A model generated the notes under the pieces. It was not told the origin of the DNA and made no database searches. It saw only the letters and a program-made list of their open reading frames with translations. A stretch of DNA of 64,000 nucleotides from Bryobacter aggregatus MPL3 (GTDB taxonomy: Bacteria; Acidobacteriota; Terriglobia; Bryobacterales; Bryobacteraceae): positions 930,001-994,000 of the forward strand of contig NZ_JNIF01000004.1 in assembly GCF_000702445.1 (NCBI RefSeq), read 5' to 3'. This document shows positions 16,396 through 23,274 of the stretch, piece by piece. Positions within the stretch are counted from its first letter, which is position 1; every line of letters starts with the position of its first letter. The position numbers and the translations under genes are program-made.

Positions 16396-17367
16396 ATGCG
16401 GTGTAGTTACTGTAAAGGCAAAATCGGCTTCTGGCGCGGTCTCTCGGATCGAGAGTATTGCAATGAGGAGCATCGCCGTCGTGGCCGGAATGTCACCGCC
16501 AGGCAAGCTCGCGAGAGCCTCATCTATGGCGACGAAGAGCTCTATGAGGTTGGCAATGAGGAGCGCAAGCAAAAACAGAAGCACTCCAAGCTGCAGGCGC
16601 AGATCATTGTTGTCTTGTCTACTGTCATGATTGGCGTCCTTGCGTTTTCTGCCGCCACAGGAAGCAGCGGCGGCACGCTCCACCAGCGGACCGTCTCCCT
16701 GACCGGAGAGCTTTCGCGCAGCAGTCCGCTCCTCTCGCAGGCGACCAATTACATCAAATCGATGTTGCCCAGCTCTCCGCCTGTCCGCATTCATGACGAC
16801 TTTACTGCCGGAATTGTCAGTTGGATGGGGGCCCGGACTTCCGATTGGTCCGTCGCTGGGGGCACTCTGCGTCCTGCCGGTCTACGGGTCTGGAAGCCAT
16901 CGGTGCAATTGTCGGATTACCGGCTTGAATTTGAAGGCCAGATCGACCGGAACGCCATGAGCTGGGCTTTCCGTGCTCCCGATCTGCGGAATTACTATGC
17001 CACCAAGATTGTTCTGAAAAAAACTAGTGGTGCAACCGTTGCAGATCTGGTTCGCTACACGGTCTTGAACGGTGCGGAACGCGACCGGTTGCGCCTGCCA
17101 CTTCCCATCGCCATCCAGCCCGATACGCTTTATCACGTGCAAATGAGCGTCCGGGGAGATCAGTTCATTACGAAGGTCAACGGACAGGTCGTCGATTCCT
17201 GGAAAGACAATCGTCTGAAGCGGGGCGGAATCGGCTTCTTCTCCGATAAGGGCGAGACGGCGTCGATCCATTGGGTGGATGTTCGCGAAGAACGGGATGG
17301 CATCTTCAATCGTCTTTTTTCACTTGGATTCTTCGTGCTGCCTGTTGCATTCGAGACCTTGGACTGA
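16396..17367 (+). CDS. Membrane protein with N-terminal zinc-finger-like motif and extracytoplasmic LamG/DUF1080-like domain
   Basis: 323 aa and not a family I can name. Residues 1-30 hold CSYCKGKIGFWRG..YCNEEHR, a CxxC...CxxxH cluster that looks like a small zinc finger. A charged segment (GNEERKQKQKHSKLQ) then leads into one membrane helix at about 72-95. After a Ser/Gly linker, residues 135-300 resemble a concanavalin/DUF1080 beta-sandwich: DDFTAGIVSWMGARTSDWSV, YRLEFEGQIDRNAMSWAF, GGIGFFSDKGETASIHWVDV. The expected topology is zinc finger in the cytoplasm and carbohydrate-type sandwich outside. The gene has a 192-bp upstream gap with hairpins. Its last 62 bp overlap the convergent DCC gene. 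Confidence 0.7.
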   Translation: MRCSYCKGKIGFWRGLSDREYCNEEHRRRGRNVTARQARESLIYGDEELYEVGNEERKQKQKHSKLQAQIIVVLSTVMIGVLAFSAATGSSGGTLHQRTVSLTGELSRSSPLLSQATNYIKSMLPSSPPVRIHDDFTAGIVSWMGARTSDWSVAGGTLRPAGLRVWKPSVQLSDYRLEFEGQIDRNAMSWAFRAPDLRNYYATKIVLKKTSGATVADLVRYTVLNGAERDRLRLPLPIAIQPDTLYHVQMSVRGDQFITKVNGQVVDSWKDNRLKRGGIGFFSDKGETASIHWVDVREERDGIFNRLFSLGFFVLPVAFETLD

Positions 17368-17735: not shown

Positions 17736-17742
17736 TATCATA
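17736..17742. promoter_or_regulatory. Overlapping divergent -10 boxes for tRNA-Leu and the DCC gene
   Basis: Plus strand TATCAT (17736-17741) ends 8 nt before the first base of tRNA-Leu at 17750. Minus strand TATGAT (17742-17737) ends 8 nt before the DCC start codon. The two boxes share five base pairs, so one symmetric element can drive both units. Confidence 0.5.
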
Positions 17743-17749
17743 GAGTAAC

Positions 17750-17834
17750 GCGGTCGTGGCGAAATTGGCAGACGCACTAGACTTAGGATCTAGCGGGGCA
17801 ACCCATCCGAGTTCAAGTCTCGGCGACCGCACCA
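17750..17834 (+). tRNA. tRNA-Leu, anticodon UAG
   Basis: 85 nt including the encoded CCA. The 7-bp acceptor stem GCGGTCG/CGACCGC pairs perfectly, the anticodon stem CTAGA/TCTAG closes loop CTTAGGA with anticodon TAG at 17784-17786, and a variable arm of class II type plus GTTCAAGTC T-loop are present. It reads leucine CUA (and CUN by wobble). The mature end CCA is followed directly by coding sequence of the M24-like gene in an open frame that runs through the tRNA. Confidence 0.97.
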
Positions 17835-17845
17835 GGCTCATCGAG

Positions 17846-19195
17846 CTGGATTGGCCGGGCTTTGACAACACGCTCGACGCCCTTTTCCCTCCCCCCACTC
17901 TCCATGCCAGTCGCCTTGAGGCTTTTGCACAGACGCTCGAACGGCGTGGCTTTACGCATGCCGTGGTCTACGGTGATCGGGAACACTTTGCAAATCTCCA
18001 TTTTCTGACCGGCTTCGATCCGCGTTTTGAAGAGGCCTTGCTTCTGGTCCGGCCGCAAGGGAAACCGCTGCTTCTGGTCGGCAATGAATGTGTCGCCTAT
18101 CTTCCGATCAGTCCACCCTGGAAGCTCGGTCAGCTGCGGCACGAACGCTACCAGCCCTTCTCACTCGAAGACCAGCCCCGCAATCAGTCCAGAACAATCG
18201 AGGCGATCTTCCGGGAGGAAGGCATCAGCGCTGGTTCCCGGATTGCCGCCATCGGATGGAAGACCTATTCCAACCCGCTCGCGAGCGACCTGCCCTCCTA
18301 TCTGGTCGATACACTGCGCAGCTTGGCCGGGCCCGATTCCGTCCGCAACGCAACTGGCTGGCTGATTCATAATTTGAGAGTTCACGCCTCGCCTTTCGAT
18401 CTTGCGAGCTTCGAGGCGAATAACGTCAAGGCCTCAGAGGCGATGCGCCGCATCCAGTTCGCCCTGCGTCCCGGTTTGAGTGATCAGGAATTACTCGCAG
18501 AAGCGAGCCGCTACGATGGCACGCCGCTGTCCTGCCATATGGGATGCAAGACGGGACCCAAACGAGTCAGCCTGGCCAGCCCCTCCGGCAATCGCATCGA
18601 GAGCGGCAATACCTGGTCCGCGAACATTGCCTACTGGGGGGCGAATATCTGCCGCTCCAACTGGGTGGCTCATGACGAGAGGGATCTCCCTGCCCCGGCT
18701 CGCGATTATGTGGCTGCCTTTGCCGCGCCTTATTTCACGGCCTTCGCCAACTGGCTGGAGAACCTCGAAGAAGGCGCAGCTTGCTCGGCTCTCTTTGACC
18801 AGATCCATCGCGAACTGCCGCAGGAGCTGTTCCATATCGAGCTGAATCCGGGACATCTCATTTCCTATGAGGAGTGGCCCAGTTCTCCGTTCTATGCCGA
18901 TTCCCAAGTCACACTGAGCTCAGGTATGGTGATCCAGTCTGATATCATTCCGAGCCATCCGGTCTACGCTTCGACACGTGCCGAGGACGGCTATGCCATT
19001 GCCAGCCGCGAACTCCAGCGCACCCTCCAACAGGACTATCCGCATGCATGGAAGCGCATCAGCCAACGCCGCGATTTCCTCCACAATGTGCTGGGCATCG
19101 AGATTCCCGACAGCCTGCTGCCCTTGTCCAACACGGCGGGCATCGTTGCTCCCTACGCTTTGGCGCCTCGCCGCATCTTTGCACGCGCCTGTTAA
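17846..19195 (+). CDS. Degenerate M24 (creatinase/prolidase-fold) peptidase-like protein, start codon unclear
   Basis: About 449 aa if it starts at the CTG at 17846. A creatinase N-terminal domain begins near ASRLEAFAQTLERRGFTHAV and the M24 pita-bread domain fills the C-terminal half. The metal ligands of active M24 enzymes are altered: where family members have a VDxG-type and an SDITR-type aspartate, this protein has TWSANIAYWGANICRSNWV. The late GH and E segments (NPGHLISYEEWP, IQSDIIP) are only partly kept, so it is probably not a metallopeptidase. No ATG, GTG or TTG occurs in frame between the tRNA-Leu end (17834) and GTG in AVVYGD, which lies inside the domain. The start must be CTG 17846, ATC 17840, or GTG 17756 inside the tRNA. 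Confidence 0.65.
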   Translation: MDWPGFDNTLDALFPPPTLHASRLEAFAQTLERRGFTHAVVYGDREHFANLHFLTGFDPRFEEALLLVRPQGKPLLLVGNECVAYLPISPPWKLGQLRHERYQPFSLEDQPRNQSRTIEAIFREEGISAGSRIAAIGWKTYSNPLASDLPSYLVDTLRSLAGPDSVRNATGWLIHNLRVHASPFDLASFEANNVKASEAMRRIQFALRPGLSDQELLAEASRYDGTPLSCHMGCKTGPKRVSLASPSGNRIESGNTWSANIAYWGANICRSNWVAHDERDLPAPARDYVAAFAAPYFTAFANWLENLEEGAACSALFDQIHRELPQELFHIELNPGHLISYEEWPSSPFYADSQVTLSSGMVIQSDIIPSHPVYASTRAEDGYAIASRELQRTLQQDYPHAWKRISQRRDFLHNVLGIEIPDSLLPLSNTAGIVAPYALAPRRIFARAC

Positions 19196-22565: not shown

Positions 22566-22952
22566 CTACCAGAGGACCCGGACTGGGTATTGCGCAAAGG
22601 CGCGATCTGACGTGACGATCACCATTCCCTGCACGAGCGCCTGGGCGATCAACATCCGGTCAAAGGGATCGCGATGGAGCATCGGGAGCTTTTCGGCAGT
22701 GAGTGCATCTTCCTCGGTGAGCGGAAGCGTCTCGATACCCGATTCGTTGCGCAGTTCTGGAATCAGGACTTCAGGCCGCTCCGGGAGTTCCAACTGGCCT
22801 TGGGCGTACTTCCTTGAGATCTCCCAAGCCGACACAGCGCTCAGATAGACCTCGTTCTGTTCGTCACAAATGGCGACCCGCACCTTCGCGGAAAGTGCGG
22901 GCGAATCGGAGACAAACCAGAGAAAGGCGCAGGTATCGAGCAGCAGCTTCAC
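22566..22952 (-). CDS. PIN-domain toxin (VapC family)
   Basis: 128 aa. The four acidic residues of the PIN nuclease are in place: D6 (LLLDTCAFLWF), the glutamate in VSAWEISRKY, the first aspartate of HRDPFDRMLIAQA and the one in VTSDRAF. VapC toxins are Mg-dependent RNases that cut tRNA or rRNA. Its ATG overlaps the stop of the upstream antitoxin gene by 4 bp (22949-22952), the usual toxin-antitoxin order. The pair is flanked by the kinase gene and a GMC oxidoreductase gene and shows no sign of recent transfer in base composition. Confidence 0.9.
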   Translation of the reverse strand: MKLLLDTCAFLWFVSDSPALSAKVRVAICDEQNEVYLSAVSAWEISRKYAQGQLELPERPEVLIPELRNESGIETLPLTEEDALTAEKLPMLHRDPFDRMLIAQALVQGMVIVTSDRAFAQYPVRVLW

Positions 22953-23230
22953 TGCCCGGCAGCCTTGGCCTGGAGCGGAAAGACGGGGGCGCCCTCAAAA
23001 TCAGAAAGCTCCTGCTCGCTCATTGGAGCAAAGCAATCTTCCGTCCAGCTCATCCTGCCCTTGAGCAAGCCGGGGACTCGCTTCCGCGCCGCAGCAGGCT
23101 TGGGCGCGATGGGGCGAATCTCGGCAATGGGTTTGTTATGGCGATTGATCACAACGGTCACGCCCGCTACTACCTGGTCGAGAATCTTCGACAGATGAGT
23201 CTTTGCGTCTTGGATACTGAACTGATCCAT
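22949..23230 (-). CDS. Phd/YefM-type antitoxin
   Basis: 93 aa from the ATG at 23230, which has AGGA 7 nt upstream; an in-frame TTG at 23236 is less likely. The N-terminal DNA-binding Phd/YefM domain is plain: FSIQDAKTHLSKILDQVVAG, followed by VVINRHNKPIAEIRPI. The C-terminal 45 residues (RKRVPGLLKGRMSW..LSDFEGAPVFPL) are the toxin-neutralising part. It should bind and inhibit the PIN toxin and autoregulate the promoter lying in the AT-rich segment just upstream (23241-23275). Confidence 0.88.
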   Translation of the reverse strand: MDQFSIQDAKTHLSKILDQVVAGVTVVINRHNKPIAEIRPIAPKPAAARKRVPGLLKGRMSWTEDCFAPMSEQELSDFEGAPVFPLQAKAAGQ

Positions 23231-23274
23231 GACCAAATCCTATCACTATTCTGGTTTAAAATATAGTCTAATTC

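Follow-up and report, generated by a model that had tools for sequence, protein, structure and literature searches.

The 64,000-nucleotide stretch of Bryobacter aggregatus MPL3 DNA analysed here (the window) carries an intact coding sequence for a divergent M24-fold protein that begins on the last base of a tRNA-Leu(UAG) gene and has no ordinary start codon where its homologues start. We propose, as a tentative reading with a probability of about 0.45, that the gene is expressed as a tRNA-mRNA cotranscript and weakly translated from a near-cognate codon, preferably ATC 17840. The MPL3 genome, designated G000 in our comparisons, comprises 5.75 Mb in four contigs, the largest of 4.3 Mb. The features that matter for this reading are listed below.

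17736..17741, + strand: TATCAT, a -10-like box in the tRNA promoter, lying 8 nt 5' of the tRNA and conserved in the genus
17750..17834, + strand: tRNA-Leu(UAG), anticodon TAG, with encoded CCA (ARAGORN; Rfam RF00005, 56.3 bits)
17756..17758, + strand: GTG in frame within the tRNA (tRNA nt 7-9), a rival start; the tRNA fold pairs or buries this codon
17834..17836, + strand: AGG, the R of the conserved R-L-I-E, which aligns with the ATG of the related species G002
17834..19195, + strand: startless coding sequence for the divergent M24-fold protein (453 aa and a stop codon), supported by homologues and purifying selection
17837..17845, + strand: CTC ATC GAG (L-I-E), the N-terminal motif and predicted beta-strand 2-4 (alignment; AlphaFold model)
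17840-17842, + strand: ATC, the preferred near-cognate start candidate, based on homologue N-termini
17846..17848, + strand: CTG, the second near-cognate start candidate, read from the sequence; it would drop family residues 1-4
17963..17965, + strand: first in-frame GTG past the tRNA, inside the N-terminal domain; a start rejected on homologue N-termini

The protein frame is open from 17750, inside the tRNA, to the stop at 19195, as an earlier sequence-only reading of this DNA had reported, and a frame scan, ARAGORN and Rfam all agree with that description. Its in-frame ordinary starts are GTG 17756 and TTG 17765, both within the tRNA, and next GTG 17963. The scan found no in-frame ATG, GTG or TTG between TTG 17765 and GTG 17963, which bears out the same reading's claim that none lies between the tRNA 3' end and the GTG inside the N-terminal domain. 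The A of AGG 17834-17836 is the final base of the tRNA CCA, so that R-L-I-E-L-D-W-P is kept in frame right up to the last tRNA base, and the assembled junction, which holds no start codon, reads CCAGGCTCATC. The gene is co-oriented with the tRNA and lies directly 3' of it, with 0 nt from CCA to the coding frame and neither promoter nor terminator between them, the arrangement of a tRNA-mRNA cotranscript. With this genome's codon usage, 43 codons would lack ATG, GTG and TTG by chance in ~6% of cases, and the missing ordinary start is by itself a slight anomaly. Comparison shows it to be exceptional: ~75 of ~75 homologues with a readable 5' end have an ordinary start and the window gene alone has none. 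The openness of the tRNA frame, on the other hand, is uninformative as we read it: frame 0 of the tRNA (VVA[KE]LADAL.LG.SGATHPSS.LGDRT) stays open across the genus in the orthologous tRNAs, irrespective of the sequence downstream, and an in-frame fusion would therefore be expected by chance about once in three.

Where the protein ought to begin was judged from its homologues. A search of genome contigs with the single protein returned no relatives, and an alignment query was needed to find them; the alignment-based search of genome contigs then recovered 360 candidate relatives over many phyla. Within the genus, 8/8 species carry a homologue. The motif R-L-I-E-x-D-W-P is common to 13 aligned homologues, and the N-terminus takes the form M(0-11 residues)-[R]LIExDWP in the eight genus species and in ~75 relatives from many phyla. 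Our survey of starts covered 79 further loci, counting only those with a readable 5' end, and all ~75 readable homologues have an ordinary start (ATG, GTG or TTG) at -11 to +2, counted from the conserved R; in one of them (G016) the start is a TTG at the L position of the motif. On the question, raised in the sequence-only reading, of whether relatives begin near ELDWPG, the alignment gives [R]LIExDWP with a start at or before the L.

At the place indicated by the alignment and the start survey, the window offers CTC, ATC and CTG, that is, near-cognate codons only. Among these candidates, ATC 17840, listed as an alternative in the sequence-only reading, fits the homologue N-termini best, with CTG 17846 second. 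CTG 17846 had been favoured in the sequence-only reading, but we disfavour it because the starts of homologues lie no later than the L of LIE and because it would remove residues 2-4, which AlphaFold predicts as a beta-strand within a block of mean pLDDT 94. That model was built from 53 sequences and has a mean pLDDT of 94.8, whereas a single-sequence model was unusable (pLDDT 36).

The same model places the protein in the pita-bread fold. Its Foldseek matches are prolidases, PepE, creatinase and the ectoine hydrolase DoeA (best E ~1e-17), with prolidase and PepE as the best. Pfam and NCBIfam models gave no match to the window protein, and Pfam Creatinase_N and Peptidase_M24 each match 6/13 relatives. 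The protein therefore has the same predicted fold as the M24 family represented by these enzymes but differs from it in the lack of a Pfam or NCBIfam match and in its putative metal ligands. On a tentative mapping to the 1wy2 profile, a weak alignment with an E of 0.15, the five M24 ligands D-D-H-E-E are replaced by N-N-H-D-E (N, N271, H341, D370 and E384), and N271, H341, D370 and E384 are invariant in 53 relatives. This pattern suggests that the branch, like creatinase or DoeA, works independently of metal or with an altered metal. The family encoded at 17834-19195 forms a branch of the M24 fold that is widespread and poorly covered by Pfam, with conserved SCHM and YWGxNxCR motifs.

The same junction occurs in a second species. 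In G002 the gene also stands behind the tRNA, with the junction CCA-ACCTTACCTCA-ATG-CTG-ATC-GAA and 11 nt between CCA and ATG; compared with G002, the window is shorter by 12 nt (in frame) and has AGG at the place of the ATG. No tRNA is joined to the gene in the other homologous loci, where the nearest co-oriented tRNA is 147 nt from the match (L078). Adjacency is thus found in the window species and this one sister species only, and an invariable pairing of tRNA and gene, which the sequence-only reading had raised for checking, is not supported. G000 and G002 are sisters in the trees of the startless gene's protein and of the protein encoded by the neighbour at 16396 (support 91/91 and 100/99), and the tRNA junction therefore probably arose once. 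This neighbour (16396-17367) encodes a 323-aa protein with no Pfam match and is conserved 5' of the tRNA in several genus species. The orthologous tRNA-Leu(UAG) has TATCAT 8-10 nt 5' of it in six other genus species (TAACAT in one), and the genes downstream of it vary.

Other species of the genus preserve what may be the older arrangement. In G001, G003 and G005 the gene is divergent from a macB-like gene and has -10-like boxes ~10-19 nt 5' of its ATG, and several species have a convergent kinase after it. In G000, contig C3 carries the macB orthologue (67% identity, against 37% for the next paralogue), whereas C4 carries, beside the tRNA, the gene together with an M28 peptidase and the kinase, to which the gene is still near; a rearrangement therefore appears to have stripped the gene of its own promoter. 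Upstream of macB in G000, neither the gene's former promoter nor its former start could be recognised. This genome contains ~60 MacB-like permease matches (contigs C3 and C4), several of them fragmentary or with internal stops. Directly after the orthologous tRNA-Leu(UAG), G001 has a phage-type tyrosine integrase (L039 1642-2883, - strand) and G005 an integrase fragment (L038 1644-1871, - strand), and the tRNA 3' end is therefore a target of recombination or integration in the genus. Recombination at this site is a possible cause of the rearrangement; a search of the window and four related loci for att-site repeats of the tRNA 3' end found none.

From these comparisons we infer an order of events at the junction. 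A rearrangement in the ancestor of G000 and G002 would have parted the gene from macB and from its own promoter, and the gene would have been joined to the 3' end of tRNA-Leu(UAG), with read-through from the tRNA promoter becoming its sole transcription. In the B. aggregatus lineage, the junction would later have lost ~12 nt together with the ATG, so that the final base of CCA is now also the first base encoding RLIELDWP.

The tRNA's TATCAT is the only promoter-like element positioned to transcribe the gene. Transcription from the tRNA promoter, already proposed from the letters of the window, would thus be the only credible route, by read-through. Trimming at CCA would then free an mRNA with its 5' end near 17835, and a near-cognate codon at this freed end may start low-level synthesis, most likely AUC 17840 (giving M-E-L-D-W-P) with CUG 17846 second. 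Shine-Dalgarno-like motifs precede 22% of unambiguous starts in this genome versus 11% of control positions, and a -10-like box lies 12-18 nt 5' of the start in 17% of cases versus a background of ~6%, a roughly threefold (~3x) enrichment. This 17% share matches the published leaderless fractions of 9.7-19.4% of genes in Acidobacteria (PMC3160421). Sparse Shine-Dalgarno use and the many -10-like boxes near starts therefore make a nearly leaderless message freed at CCA plausible. Leaderless initiation generally needs AUG or GUG, neither of which is present near the predicted 5' end at 17835; on the uncut transcript, GUG 17756 would lie ~7-9 nt from where transcription is predicted to start. AUC, like CUG, is a weak start codon, and a predicted 5' hairpin of the cleaved mRNA covers ATC 17840. 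In E. coli, CUG yields ~0.86% of the translation obtained with AUG, and it makes up 0.024% of bacterial start codons (PMC11497404).

A close rival to weak non-AUG translation is that the gene was recently silenced, the loss of the ATG having ended meaningful translation and the coding sequence being intact only because this loss is young; we consider this a real possibility, if not the favoured one. Start loss is a common first step in gene loss, and CTC, ATC and CTG are all poor start codons. No Shine-Dalgarno-like motif is placed for the remaining starts except the AGG straddling the tRNA end, and the 5' end of the message is predicted to be structured. Against silencing, the coding sequence has no stops or frameshifts and lacks its start alone; the window protein violates 0/74 near-invariant columns versus 5/74 in G002, and relative-rate tests gave no significant rate increase relative to G002 (chi2 0.01-3.56). 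Identity to G002 at the three codon positions is 70/79/42%, a pattern that therefore indicates purifying selection, and the gene, which is single copy in the genome, is retained in 8/8 genus species. The coding sequence is thus neither disrupted nor relaxed in the manner of a pseudogene. Its intact state speaks against an old pseudogene, but a very recent start loss would look alike. As for the tRNA-linked copy in G002 (L056 2498-3829), its count of broken columns is above that of most relatives, though it has an ATG.

Weak initiation behind a tRNA, as we propose for the window gene, can be set beside systems already described. Bacterial tRNA-mRNA cotranscripts include thrU-tyrU-glyT-thrT-tufB and tyrT-tpr of E. 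coli. The window gene resembles these in being a promoterless protein gene directly after a tRNA, with read-through transcription here predicted, but differs in having neither an intergenic leader nor an ordinary start. In animal mitochondria, tRNA punctuation makes the 5' ends of mRNAs, which are nearly leaderless and may have non-AUG starts of the AUN type. The predicted processed 5' end, the nearly leaderless message and the possible AUN-type start are shared with that system, whereas here a single bacterial gene is concerned, with putative cleavage and initiation and with no known modified initiator anticodon. A full equivalent of mitochondrial punctuation, in which CCA cleavage would yield a leaderless mRNA, ribosomes would start at a 5'-terminal AUC or CUG and a strong tRNA promoter would compensate for the weak start, seems to us unlikely. 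The leaderless genes of Acidobacteria (PMC3160421) are similar to the genus-ancestral form of the gene, which has a -10-like box near its ATG, but they start with AUG or GUG, neither of which is available at the window junction.

We regard as quite improbable a sequence error or culture-specific mutation, under which AGG would really be ATG and the true junction would be CC-ATG-CTC, i.e., CCATGCTCATC. A single T to G change parts AGG from ATG, precisely where G002 has its ATG. PacBio consensus errors are mostly indels, with substitutions rare at deep coverage. A single-indel error hiding an in-frame ATG is ruled out by the continuous in-frame RLIELDWP and by the tRNA, which is intact to CCA, and therefore only a substitution (ATG read as AGG) could explain the missing codon. 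The genome was assembled with HGAP from PacBio reads alone (read sample SRS1520682) at 176.8x coverage (PMC6992861), a depth at which a substitution error is very unlikely. The hidden ATG that had been named as a threat to the sequence-only reading is thus improbable.

About as improbable is a start at GTG 17756 on an unprocessed read-through transcript, which would give the protein a 26-residue tRNA-encoded extension. This option had been raised earlier, and it stands insofar as GTG 17756 is an ordinary start codon with a frame continuous into the protein; with a transcript whose 5' end, judging by the promoter, lies ~1-3 nt upstream of the tRNA, the codon would also be near leaderless. However, as tRNA nt 7-9, it is hidden by the tRNA fold, and the message carrying it would be cut by RNase P and in 3' processing. 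The open tRNA frame occurs in genus orthologues regardless of what lies after it, and a tRNA-type extension is found in no homologue. Peptides read from tRNA genes are also a known class of spurious annotation. AntiFam is a collection of spurious protein families.

Least probable of all is a start at GTG 17963 (AVVYGD), which is the first ordinary in-frame start past the tRNA but which we exclude because homologue N-termini lie ~40-42 residues earlier; codons 17834-17962 are moreover coding-like in this frame only (0.19 bits/codon versus -0.19 and -0.66), and such a start would cost the N-terminal domain its first strand and helix in the AlphaFold model.

If the protein is made, the window gene would offer a natural test of non-AUG initiation at a tRNA-processed RNA end, as in animal mitochondria, in bacteria that make little use of Shine-Dalgarno motifs and have many leaderless genes, and G002, which has an ATG at the same tRNA junction, would be a ready-made control. 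If the protein is not made, the window would instead show a gene that, once captured behind a tRNA, was silenced by nothing more than the loss of its start codon. Elsewhere in the window, two overlapping small genes at 22566-23236 (- strand) resemble, on a reading of their sequence, a PIN-domain toxin and a Phd/YefM-type antitoxin.
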